From positions 124,001 through 188,000 of the forward strand of contig CALVUF010000002.1 in assembly GCA_944363525.1 (NCBI GenBank): a DNA stretch of 64,000 nt, read 5' to 3'. A model generated the notes under the pieces. That model had not been told where the DNA came from. It saw only the letters and a list, made by a program, of their open reading frames with translations, and did not search any database. Source of the DNA: an uncultured Bacilli bacterium. GTDB taxonomy: Bacteria; Bacillota_I; Bacilli_A; RFN20; CAG-826. Positions 57,020 through 61,797 of the stretch are shown piece after piece. How positions within the stretch are numbered: position 1 is the stretch's first letter; each line of letters starts with the position of its first letter. Made by a program: the position numbers and the translations under genes.

Positions 57020-58099
57020 ATGAACGACAGCATGAAAAAGCGCCTTGAGGCGACGAAAGAAAGATACGAGCAGATCGAGAAGGAATTGAGCGACGAGAAC
57101 ATCGATTCCGACCTCGAAAAGCTGACGAAATTAAGCAAAGAGAAAGCCAATCTGACCGAGGCTTATGACCTCTATTGCCGTTATTTGAAACTCGAGCAAG
57201 ATGTTAAGGACTCCTATGAGCTTGAAAACGATCCGGAGATGGCGGATTTGGCTAAGGAACAACGGAAAGCCGACCAGGCCGAGATGGAGAAGATGGAAAG
57301 CGACTTCCAGACCATCCTTTTGCCTAAAGACCCCAATGACGACAAGAACATTATCGTCGAGATTCGGGGCGCGGTTGGGGGCGATGAAGCCAACATCTTC
57401 GCCGGCGACTTGATGCGGATGTATCAGAAATACGCCGAGAAGCAGGGGTGGAAGATCAAACTGCTCGACGCCTCCTTAGGGGCGGCCGGTGGCTATTCTT
57501 CGGTCTCCTTCATGATCAAGGGCGAGGCGGTTTATTCCAAACTCAAATTCGAATCCGGCGCCCATCGGGTCCAGCGGGTTCCGAAGACCGAGGCCAGCGG
57601 GCGAATCCACACCTCGACCGCGACGGTTTTGGTCATGCCGGAAGCCGAAGAAGTCGACGTCCATATCAATCCCAATGACTTGAAAATCGATACCTACCAT
57701 TCGCAAGGGGCGGGCGGTCAAAACGTCAATAAAACCGAGTCGGCGGTCCGGATTACCCACCTTCCGACCGGCTTGGTCGTCGCCTGCCAAACCGAGAAGG
57801 CCCAACTGCAGAATAAGGAGATCGCCATGCAGATGATCCGGGCCAAAGTCCTCTCCTATTATCAAGAAAAGGAAGACGCCAAACGGGCCAGCGAACGGAA
57901 GCTGAAAGTCGGGACCGGGGAACGCTCCGAGAAGATCCGAACCTATAACTATCCCCAAAACCGGGTGACCGATCACCGGATCGGCTTTACCATTAATCAA
58001 CTTGACCGGGTCATGGAAGGGGAACTCGATCCAATCATCGAGGCCCTCATCCATTTCGATCAGGAGCAGAAACTCCTAGAAGAGGAAAACCATGGCTAA
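57020..58099 (+). CDS. prfA: Peptide chain release factor 1
   Basis: A 359-residue factor terminating at UAA/UAG. The codon-reading PxT motif is PKT (188-190, in RVPKTEASGRIHTS), which marks RF1 rather than RF2. The catalytic GGQ is at 232-234 (HSQGAGGQNVNKTES) and would be methylated by PrmC, the next gene, which overlaps by 8 nt. Confidence 0.96.
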   Translation: MNDSMKKRLEATKERYEQIEKELSDENIDSDLEKLTKLSKEKANLTEAYDLYCRYLKLEQDVKDSYELENDPEMADLAKEQRKADQAEMEKMESDFQTILLPKDPNDDKNIIVEIRGAVGGDEANIFAGDLMRMYQKYAEKQGWKIKLLDASLGAAGGYSSVSFMIKGEAVYSKLKFESGAHRVQRVPKTEASGRIHTSTATVLVMPEAEEVDVHINPNDLKIDTYHSQGAGGQNVNKTESAVRITHLPTGLVVACQTEKAQLQNKEIAMQMIRAKVLSYYQEKEDAKRASERKLKVGTGERSEKIRTYNYPQNRVTDHRIGFTINQLDRVMEGELDPIIEALIHFDQEQKLLEEENHG

Positions 58100-58952
58100 G
58101 CTATTCGACGTCTATATGCAGGCGGTCAAAGAAGGGGCGGAGTATGGCGTTAGTAGCGCCGATATTCGCATCTGTTTAGCCCATATATTGAAATATTCGA
58201 CGCAAATCGAGGTTCTTTTGCACAAAGACGAAGAATTTGACGAATGCTATAACACGGTGTTCCAAATATATTTTAAGGAGTTGAAACAAGGGGTTCCGGT
58301 CGAATACGTTATTCACGAAGCGACCTTCCTTGGCCATAAACTCTACGTCGATAACACTGTTCTCATCCCGCGAATGGAGACCGAAGAATTGGTGGCCAAC
58401 ATCTCGGAAAAAATCCTGGATTATTATGACCCCCGAAACTACTTGGTCTGCGCCGATATTGGGACGGGCTCGGGCTGCATCGCCATCGCCTTGAAAGCCC
58501 TCTTCCCCAACTGGGTTATGTTGGCTTCTGACATTAACTCGCTCAGCTTAATGATCGCGAAGAAAAACGCCGAGGCTAACGGCACCAAAATCACCTTCTA
58601 TAATGGCTCGTCTTTAACCCCTTATATTCAAAACAACATCGCCTTGGATATCATCGTCAGCAACCCGCCTTACATCATCGACAAGAGCCGGGTTCAATCG
58701 TCAGTCAAAAAGTACGAACCAAGCCAAGCCCTTTATCTTGATCCGAATCATTCGGTTTACGAGGACCTCTTCCGCGATATTGGCAAAGTAAAGAAGAACA
58801 CCTTGCTGGTCTGCTTAGAGATCGATGATAACCTGGTCGACTACCTAAACGGTTTAATGGACAAATACCTGACGCCGAATTACCGTTATAAAAGAGAGTA
58901 CATCAAGGATATGAACGGCTTCGCCCGTTTCCTCTTCCTCTTCTTGGAGTAA
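58092..58952 (+). CDS. prmC: Release factor glutamine methyltransferase
   Basis: A 286-residue N5-glutamine methyltransferase acting on the GGQ of release factors. Catalytic NPPY at 191-194, SAM motif ADIGTGSGCIAIAL, and the VLIPRMETEEL segment are present. AAGAGGAAA precedes the ATG within prfA. Four bases separate it from the fusion gene. Confidence 0.93.
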   Translation: MAKLFDVYMQAVKEGAEYGVSSADIRICLAHILKYSTQIEVLLHKDEEFDECYNTVFQIYFKELKQGVPVEYVIHEATFLGHKLYVDNTVLIPRMETEELVANISEKILDYYDPRNYLVCADIGTGSGCIAIALKALFPNWVMLASDINSLSLMIAKKNAEANGTKITFYNGSSLTPYIQNNIALDIIVSNPPYIIDKSRVQSSVKKYEPSQALYLDPNHSVYEDLFRDIGKVKKNTLLVCLEIDDNLVDYLNGLMDKYLTPNYRYKREYIKDMNGFARFLFLFLE

Positions 58953-58956
58953 AAGC

Positions 58957-60018
58957 ATGGACACCTTAATCATCCAATGGAAAGACATCAGCTACGGCAT
59001 CAAGGTCTTAAGCGAAGGCGAGGCCTTGGCCTTCCCGACCGAAACGGTTTATGGCCTCGGGATCGCAATGGACAAGGAAAGCAATTTCCGCCGTTTGGTC
59101 GCTTTGAAACGGCGTCCGCCGGAGAAGCCTTTCACCATCATGAGTTCGTCGTTGGCTTATGCCGCGAACGTCGCCCAACTCGATGCCAGGATGCGGGCCA
59201 TCATGAAGAAATACCTTCCGGGCCCCTTGACCGTCTTGCTCCCCAAGCGTCCCCATCTCCCTTATTATCTGACCTTAGGCCTGCCAAGTATCGGTTACCG
59301 GGTCCCCGATGACAAAAACGTCATTGACATGATCGATAAGGTCGGGGTGCCTTTATTGGTTCCCTCGGCTAATCCCAGCGACCTCCCGCCGGCGTTGAAC
59401 GTCGAAGAAGCCTATCGTTACTTCCGGGGTCAGATCCCCTATATCGTTGAAGGCAATATCCGGGGTGGTAAGCCCTCGACCATCGTCGACCTCTCGGCCC
59501 CCGGGGAAATCAAACTGGTCCGGGAAGGGCCGATCCCCTTCGATGAGATCAAAGCCACCTTCGATACCTTCGTCGCCCCGACCATCGCCATCGGCTCCGA
59601 CCATGGTGGCTTCGCTTACAAGCAAGCGCTGGTCAGTTTTCTGAAGGAGGAAGGATATCAGGTCATGGATGTCGGCACCGACTCGGAAGAATCCTGCGAT
59701 TACCCGAAATTCGCCCTCAAGGTCGCCCAGGCCGTCGCCTCGAAAAATGCCCGGCTTGGCATCGTCATCTGCACCTCCGGCATCGGGGTCAGTATCGTCG
59801 CCAACAAAGTCCCAGGAATAAGGTGCGCCCTCGCCTATGATGACGTAGTGGCGGGCAAAGCCAGAGAGCATAACAACGCCAACGTCATTGCCTTCGGTCA
59901 GAAATACATGGCGTTGGAGGACGTCTATCGCCGGGTCGATATCTTCTTAACCGAGAAGTTCTCTCGGGCCGAGAAACACCATCGCCGGGTGAAGGAAATC
60001 GAAAATATCTCTTTGTAA
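58957..60018 (+). CDS. Fusion: threonylcarbamoyl-AMP synthase (Sua5/YrdC) + ribose-5-phosphate isomerase B
   Basis: A 353-residue two-domain protein. Residues 1-200 are YrdC/Sua5-like, making threonylcarbamoyl-AMP for tRNA t6A37: AFPTETVYGLGIAMD, KRRPPEKPFTI, PGPLTVLLPK and SAN (137-139). Residues 208-353 are RpiB/LacAB-like, interconverting ribulose and ribose 5-phosphate: AIGSDHGGFAYK (Asp215, His216), the catalytic Cys272 in IVICTSGIGVS, and AREHNNANVIAFG with His305. The frame is continuous. In Bacillus these genes (ywlC, ywlF) are separate in the prfA-prmC region with ywlE between them; here ywlE is absent. Confidence 0.92.
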   Translation: MDTLIIQWKDISYGIKVLSEGEALAFPTETVYGLGIAMDKESNFRRLVALKRRPPEKPFTIMSSSLAYAANVAQLDARMRAIMKKYLPGPLTVLLPKRPHLPYYLTLGLPSIGYRVPDDKNVIDMIDKVGVPLLVPSANPSDLPPALNVEEAYRYFRGQIPYIVEGNIRGGKPSTIVDLSAPGEIKLVREGPIPFDEIKATFDTFVAPTIAIGSDHGGFAYKQALVSFLKEEGYQVMDVGTDSEESCDYPKFALKVAQAVASKNARLGIVICTSGIGVSIVANKVPGIRCALAYDDVVAGKAREHNNANVIAFGQKYMALEDVYRRVDIFLTEKFSRAEKHHRRVKEIENISL

Positions 60019-60053: not shown

Positions 60054-61199
60054 ATGGGAAACGGTTTTGTTTGTCCCCGTTGTGGGAATTCCGACCCCCG
60101 GTATATCGGCTATAAGAAAGGAGCGTCGTATTGCCGGCGGTGTTTGGTGTTCCAAGGGGAAGAAGCCGTTTTCCCACCAAGTCATCCCAAACAGGTTAAA
60201 TTATCGTTAGGATACCGCCTGTCGAAGGAGCAGCAGGAACTATCCAACCGGATTCTTTTTAACTTCCAGCGCGGGGTCGACACCTTGGTCTATGCCGTCT
60301 GTGGGTCCGGTAAAACCGAGATTTCCTATGGGGTGATCGGCTATGCGATGAGCAAAGGAATGAAGGTCGCCTTCGCTTTGCCCCGACGCGACGTCGTCAT
60401 CGAGCTTTACCATCGTCTCCACGAAGCTTTCCCACTGAATAAGTTCGTCGCGGTTTATGGCGGGCATTCTGCCGATTTAGTCGGCGATTGCATCGTCTTA
60501 ACCACCCATCAGCTCTACCGTTATCCCGATTGTTTCGATCTCATCATCATGGATGAAGTCGATGCCTTCCCTTTCAAAGGGAGCGAGTTATTGGAGGCGA
60601 TGTTGGAAAGGAGCTTAAAAGGGCGTTTGATCATGATGAGCGCTACCCCCTCCAAGGCCTTGGTCAAGCGCTTTAAAGGAGCGGGTAAGGAGATCTTGAC
60701 CCTCCATACCCGGTTCCATAAGCACCCGATCCCAGTCCCGCGATTAGAGCTTGGGCCCCGGCCTTTGCTCTTTCTTAGCTTGGTCCGGAAACTTCGGCGT
60801 TATGGCAAGGTCGGCAAGCCGTGCTTCGTCTTCGTCCCAACCGTTGAATTAAGCGAATCGCTTTACCGGAAATTAGCCGGAATCTGCGCAAAAGGGGATT
60901 ATGTTTCCTCAAAACGGGTGGGGCGAAGCGACATCATCGATCGGTTTAAGAAAGGAGGTTATCGCTATTTGGTCACGACCGCGGTCTTGGAGAGGGGAAT
61001 CACGGTCAAGGATCTGCAGGTCATTGTCTATCGGGCCGACGAGGCGATTTATGACGCCGCGGCCTTGATTCAGATCGCTGGGCGGGCTGGTCGGAAAAAG
61101 GACGCCCCCGACGGGGAAGTGACCTTCCTCGCTCAAAAGGAAACGGAGGGGATCCGCGATGCCATCCTCGAAATCCGTCACTGCAACGCCTTTTTGTAA
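60054..61199 (+). CDS. comFA: DNA-uptake helicase ComFA
   Basis: A 381-residue DEAD-type ATPase driving DNA uptake in competence. An N-terminal zinc finger (Cys7, Cys10, Cys27, Cys30) precedes Walker A CGSGKTE (about 83-89), IMDEVDAF, MMSATPS and QIAGRAGRKK. No Shine-Dalgarno is seen before ATG 60054, and a weak TACTTA box lies six bases upstream. comFB is absent; comFC overlaps by 41 nt. Confidence 0.9.
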   Translation: MGNGFVCPRCGNSDPRYIGYKKGASYCRRCLVFQGEEAVFPPSHPKQVKLSLGYRLSKEQQELSNRILFNFQRGVDTLVYAVCGSGKTEISYGVIGYAMSKGMKVAFALPRRDVVIELYHRLHEAFPLNKFVAVYGGHSADLVGDCIVLTTHQLYRYPDCFDLIIMDEVDAFPFKGSELLEAMLERSLKGRLIMMSATPSKALVKRFKGAGKEILTLHTRFHKHPIPVPRLELGPRPLLFLSLVRKLRRYGKVGKPCFVFVPTVELSESLYRKLAGICAKGDYVSSKRVGRSDIIDRFKKGGYRYLVTTAVLERGITVKDLQVIVYRADEAIYDAAALIQIAGRAGRKKDAPDGEVTFLAQKETEGIRDAILEIRHCNAFL

Positions 61200-61797
61200 A
61201 CGGTGCTTTAAGCCGATAAAGGTCGCTTCATTCCGTGGCTTATTCGGCATCTCCTCGGTTTGCTATGACTGCTACCAAGAGTTAGGCCCAAAATGGACGA
61301 GATGGAAAGAAGGGAAAGTCGATTGCTTGGCCCTATACGATTACAACGAGGCGGTCCGCTCAACCCTTTATCAATTCAAGGGGGTGGGGGATATCGAATT
61401 GGCCTCGGTTTTCTTCGCTTATCCTTTGCCAATTCTCCGCTGGCTTTATCATGGTTACACCTTGGTCCCGGCCCCCAGTTCCCCGTCCCATAACGAGGCC
61501 CGGGGGTTCAATCAGGTGGTGGAGATGGGAAAGGTCTTAGGCCTACCAATTCTTCAAGCCATGGTTAAAGACGAGGGCGCTAAACAGACCGACCTTTCGG
61601 CCGAAGAAAGGACGGCGGTGGGAAAAATGATCCATCTATCGTCGACGAAGGCGGTCAAGGGAAAGAAAATCCTCCTCCTCGACGACGTCTTCACCACCGG
61701 TTCGACCGCCCGGGCTTGCCTCCGTTTGCTCTTAAAAGCCGGAGCCAAGAAAGTACGGCTTTTGGTGATGGCCAAAACCCAATTTAAAGGGCGCTAG
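61159..61797 (+). CDS. comFC: Competence protein ComFC, phosphoribosyltransferase-like
   Basis: A 212-residue protein. An N-terminal zinc-ribbon-like motif (CKRC and CYDC) precedes a PRTase fold with [18 protein letters not shown] and the PRPP loop [14 protein letters not shown]. It overlaps comFA by 41 nt in another frame, so it is translated with it. ComFC binds ComFA and supports DNA uptake. Confidence 0.9.

Follow-up and report, generated by a model that had tools for sequence, protein, structure and literature searches.

The 64,000-nucleotide stretch of an uncultured Bacilli genome analysed here (the window) carries a gene in which TsaC, an enzyme of tRNA t6A synthesis, and ribose-5-phosphate isomerase B (RpiB) share one chain. 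We consider it best explained, with a probability of about 80%, as encoding a bifunctional enzyme with two independent activities that arose by loss of the stop codon between abutting genes. The gene (58957..60018, + strand) is a single uninterrupted frame of 353 codons, running from ATG at 58957 to TAA at 60016-60018, and is preceded by a GGAG at 58946..58949 (+) that is likely its ribosome-binding site and that overlaps the end of prmC. Using hmmscan against Pfam, we found two complete, non-overlapping domains: a TsaC (threonylcarbamoyl-AMP synthase) domain at residues 17-191 (59005..59529, +; PF01300, E=4.9e-45, 153.6 bits against a cut-off of 25.1, profile 2-178 of 178) and an RpiB domain at residues 210-348 (59584..60000, +; PF02502, E=2.3e-52, 177.1 bits against 24.7, profile 1-138 of 138). 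NCBIfam models agreed, with 149.7 bits for TIGR00057 (L-threonylcarbamoyladenylate synthase; cut-off 123.2) and 172 bits for PRK05571 (RpiB; cut-off 135). The first-pass annotation, which had placed a YrdC-type enzyme and RpiB in one frame after prfA-prmC, is thus borne out: both domains score far above curated cut-offs, prmC (release-factor methyltransferase; 58092..58952, +) lies 4 nt upstream of the fusion gene, and prfA (release factor 1; 57020..58099, +) precedes prmC with an 8-nt overlap. Downstream, at 60054-61797, lie a DEAD-box helicase gene and a phosphoribosyltransferase-domain gene that overlap by 41 nt and resemble comFA-comFC, with secA next.

Between the domains, the junction (residues 192-209; 59530..59583, +) comprises the last TsaC helix (195-203) and a short linker. 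A splitting stop, an internal start or a misassembled junction had been named beforehand as observations that would speak against a genuine fusion; we looked for all three and found none. The frame contains no internal stop codon, no in-frame ATG, GTG or TTG occurs within the 12 codons preceding the RpiB start of the window gene or the 3 following it, and the same single-frame fusion is present in two independently assembled MAGs (93% and 88% identity). Comparing the window gene with its two nearest relatives, and those two with each other, gave dN/dS values of 0.045-0.08 for each half, although dS approached saturation; as judged from these substitution patterns, both halves are under purifying selection. 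A relic junction ATG is kept in 4 of the 22 fused genes of the genus, and no start-like codon there has a Shine-Dalgarno-like site. Seven fusions outside the genus (L050, L085, L087, L088, L105, L106 and L107) do retain a junction ATG with such a site, and in these, free RpiB could be made besides the fused form. These seven genes, together with the metagenomic derivation of the genomes, are what would favor an error in assembly or sequencing, or the production of two proteins by way of an internal start; given the agreement between independent MAGs and the state of the junction in the window gene and its genus, we regard this explanation as extremely improbable.

In the N-terminal half, K51, R53 and S137-A138-N139 (59365..59373, +) are invariant in a set of 23 fused proteins with identities as low as 35%. 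K51, R53, S137 and N139 form the KxR/SxN tetrad, which serves as a filter for the TsaC/Sua5 family (PMC10321239). Of the label Sua5/YrdC, given to this half in the first pass, the Sua5 part was not supported, and we assign the half to the short TsaC type. The SUA5 domain (PF03481) had no match in the window genome or among the listed genomes of its family, in a search that does find B. subtilis, and the fusion protein has neither this domain nor the other Sua5 hallmark, the PGM/HY interdomain loop; across the class, the long form was found in 21 of the 247 genomes searched. With short TsaC/YrdC proteins (TIGR00057/PF01300), the window protein shares the whole N-terminal domain, the KxR/SxN residues and the absence of a SUA5 domain, and it differs from them by its C-terminal RpiB and by a proline, Pro136 (codon 59362-59364), before SAN, where the typical TsaC signature has Thr or Ser. 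Because proline before SxN is also found in genuine TsaC exceptions (PMC10321239), Pro136 does not exclude TsaC. TsaC-type relatives carry Pro, Thr or Ser at this position. Proline in TsaC has been reported only for Brachyspira, Lactococcus, Erysipelothrix and Aquificae (PMC10321239), whereas among the TsaC-type proteins scorable here, fused or split and without a SUA5 domain, 61 of 108 carry it; these proteins constitute a further large exception and extend those already reported to the Pro/Thr signature separating Sua5 from TsaC. We rejected the idea that the proline results from fusion, finding no association in phylogenetically independent pairs, few of which were informative.

The C-terminal half is similarly conserved: D215, H216, D248-Y249-P250, C272, H305, N306, H341 and R344 are invariant across the same 23 proteins, and equivalents of all residues expected of an RpiB (catalytic Cys, His99/102, Asp-His, DYP and His138) are present. 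The SAN motif, D215, H216, C272 and H305 all lie where the first-pass annotation had put them. By alignment and offset, D215-H216, D248-Y249-P250, C272, H305 and H341 correspond to Asp10-His11, Asp45-Tyr46-Pro47, Cys69, His102 and His138 of Leishmania RpiB, in which C69S, H102N and D45N each abolish activity (PMC4783025). Asp215-His216 (59599..59604, +) would form the substrate-binding end, equivalent to Asp10-His11 of trypanosomatid RpiB (PMC4783025); Cys272 (59770..59772, +), aligned with Cys66 of E. coli and Cys69 of Leishmania, is the predicted catalytic base; and His305 (59869..59871, +), equivalent to His99 of E. coli and His102 of Leishmania, is the predicted ring-opening residue. With RpiB proteins (PF02502/PRK05571), the window protein shares the whole C-terminal domain and the Asp-His, DYP, Cys, His, His and Arg residues, but its version is not free-standing and has Thr273 after the catalytic Cys, where RpiB from Clostridium thermocellum (3he8) has Gly. 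This substitution could alter the rate or substrate of the isomerase. The RpiB family also holds LacAB and other sugar-phosphate isomerases. Among NCBIfam family models, those for RpiB score best for this half, and galactose-6-phosphate isomerase (LacA/LacB) was rejected, with scores far under the equivalog cut-offs (for example, 100.1 bits against 312.55 for TIGR01119).

Searching the genome with the fused protein and with a profile of fused proteins revealed no second TsaC or RpiB, and RpiA (PF06026) was not found, although 8 of 14 control genomes were positive. TsaD, a second TsaD-family match (likely TsaB) and TsaE are encoded together on contig C2 at 23.1-25.5 kb. The window genome is about 95% complete, making these absences probable rather than certain; the single copy of each half, the lack of a detected rpiA and the presence of TsaD, TsaB and TsaE homologs suggest that both activities are probably required of the fusion gene. 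This bears on whether one half could have lost catalysis and be retained as a passenger that aids folding or oligomerization, for which some variation in an RpiB loop (Thr273) might be cited; with catalytic residues invariant and constraint similar in both halves, and neither a second copy of either half nor an rpiA detected, we consider such a passenger very unlikely.

How the two genes came together can be read from relatives in which they are split. Within the class, the gap between split tsaC and rpiB lies between -30 and +20 nt in 78 of the 84 loci measured, most commonly at -4 (24 cases), and in one member of the same genus (L037), the TAA of tsaC is followed in frame by the ATG of rpiB, one stop codon from fusion. 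The first-pass annotation had instead proposed a collapse of a ywlC-ywlE-ywlF arrangement with loss of the phosphatase gene between, an account contradicted by these loci, where tsaC and rpiB already abut and no phosphatase match occurs at any split tsaC-rpiB locus of the class. Of the 21 genomes of the genus with the fusion, 14 have a PF01451 phosphatase-family gene at another locus, and no such gene was found in 2 of the 4 split ones, indicating that phosphatase loss and fusion are not coupled; in the window genome, a low-molecular-weight phosphatase gene (PF01451) was not found (11 of 14 control genomes positive). A search for the McsB kinase (PF00217), as context for YwlE, matched none of the control genomes. 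In the four phosphatase proteins inspected, the loop reads CHGNICRS or CYGNICRS, which we take to be of the tyrosine-phosphatase type rather than YwlE. We rejected phosphatase loss simultaneous with fusion, on the basis of the abutting split loci and of the phosphatase kept in many fused genomes; stop-codon loss between abutting genes explains the fusion better than the collapse does, and either ywlE had disappeared from between tsaC and rpiB long before the fusion or this lineage never had it there. The only locus with a phosphatase between the two genes is from Omnitrophota (L021:3962-5484), where a 353-aa protein combines TsaC with a low-molecular-weight phosphatase and a separate rpiB follows 2 nt later; it shares with the window a fusion within the tsaC-phosphatase-rpiB neighborhood, but there TsaC joins the phosphatase rather than RpiB.

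To follow the fusion across relatives, we surveyed the class, with distribution beyond it coming from one pattern scan. Among 31 genomes of the genus, 21 carry the fused gene, 4 carry split and adjacent genes (G006, G019, G021 and G022), 3 yielded fragments or a frameshifted copy (G018, G024 and G029, on short contigs or at contig ends) and 3 had no match. One fused gene with a frame break in its TsaC half, on a 6-kb contig (L038/L075, G024:C124), reflects a sequencing error or a pseudogene, and a second fused copy in G028 (L044, C10; 59% identical, on a 4.3-kb contig) probably stems from contamination by a different species of the genus. We built a quick IQ-TREE tree, without bootstrap, from 115 concatenated TsaC and RpiB pairs; support was weak at 38 of its 112 inner branches. 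The 22 fused genes from the genus all group together on it (SH-aLRT 97), adjoining the four split ones (SH-aLRT 99), and no reversion to the split state was seen inside that group. The fused or split state changes 9 times on this tree, compared with 30 for shuffled labels, and at least 7 changes are forced by well-supported branches; these counts do not separate gain from loss and include three uncertainly placed long rows (L051, L111 and L134). Around the fusions, the split state prevails, and we infer that the changes ran from split to fused. The fusion arose several separate times from neighboring genes.

Such recurrence invites a functional reading, in which RpiB senses ribose-5-phosphate or holds TsaC in an activity-changing oligomer, tying t6A synthesis to nucleotide and sugar status, much as the SUA5 domain does in long Sua5, where it occupies the same position and is also a Rossmann-type fold. 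In its favor, TsaC and RpiB fused repeatedly without reversion within the genus group, while the equally tight control pair at the same loci, prmC-tsaC (spacing within -30..+20 nt in 79 of 90), is fused in 0 of 90. Tight adjacency by itself eases fusion, however, and the PrmC C-terminus may differ in its tolerance, which could account for the unfused prmC-tsaC no less well than selection in favor of fusing TsaC and RpiB. An AlphaFold2 model from eight sequences (mean pLDDT 89.1, pTM 0.86, with the C-terminal tail alone weak) would also fit this reading, as the high pTM suggests a fixed domain arrangement. Foldseek against the PDB matched the TsaC half to YrdC (1hru, TMt 0.82) and the RpiB half to 3he8 (TMt 0.86), and, again in favor of such a role, aligned the whole chain to full-length Sua5 over 307-385 columns. 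The rmsd of that alignment is near 20 A, indicating a domain order like that of Sua5 but a different placement of the C-terminal domains. At the profile level, we rejected RpiB as a homolog of the SUA5 domain (hhalign probability 0.1%). With long Sua5/TsaC2 (PF03481, including B. subtilis YwlC), the window protein thus shares a TsaC-like domain followed by a Rossmann-type domain in about 350 aa, but its second domain is RpiB, differently placed in the model, and the Sua5-specific PGM/HY linker is missing; moreover, the signature residue preceding SAN does not follow the fused or split state. Taken together, a regulatory or channeling role seems unlikely, and it is equally doubtful that the fusion was functionally selected, with RpiB repeatedly recruited as a second domain of TsaC that alters its activity via oligomerization or pentose-phosphate sensing. 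If true, the latter would be a present-day counterpart of the way in which the SUA5 domain is suggested to have been acquired.

We therefore favor two enzymes that work independently on one chain. The TsaC domain would convert ATP, threonine and bicarbonate to threonylcarbamoyl-AMP, feeding t6A synthesis by TsaD, TsaB and TsaE, encoded elsewhere in the genome, and the RpiB domain would interconvert ribulose-5-phosphate and ribose-5-phosphate, the chain probably dimerizing via its RpiB part; we infer both activities, the dimerization and the absence of cross-talk. In the ancestor of most of the genus, the stop codon between the abutting, probably translationally coupled genes would have been lost, with comparable fusions originating separately in other lineages, and the fusion would have been retained as both activities are needed and are tolerated on one chain. 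TsaC-like domains joined to other catalytic domains are shared with TsaN, HypF and TobZ, the latter two given as TsaC-domain fusions in earlier work (PMC9654439, PMC10321239); the partners there include Kae1/TsaD-like domains of the same reaction sequence, whereas RpiB has no known link to it. In the literature searched, which covered few subscription journals, we found no description of a TsaC-RpiB fusion, and the PF01300+PF02502 architecture may already be in protein domain databases.

From its sequence, the protein would be an unusual but understandable bifunctional enzyme: a tRNA-modification enzyme that is universally conserved shares its chain with an enzyme of central carbon metabolism, and no pathway is known to link the two. 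If this is merely a neutral fusion of packed genes, its interest lies mainly in annotation, as naming the gene after one half would hide the other activity. Close relatives show split, one-stop-away and fused genes in series, and the state changes about nine times on the tree; this provides a clean natural experiment on the fusion of abutting genes and on any function that fusion may have.
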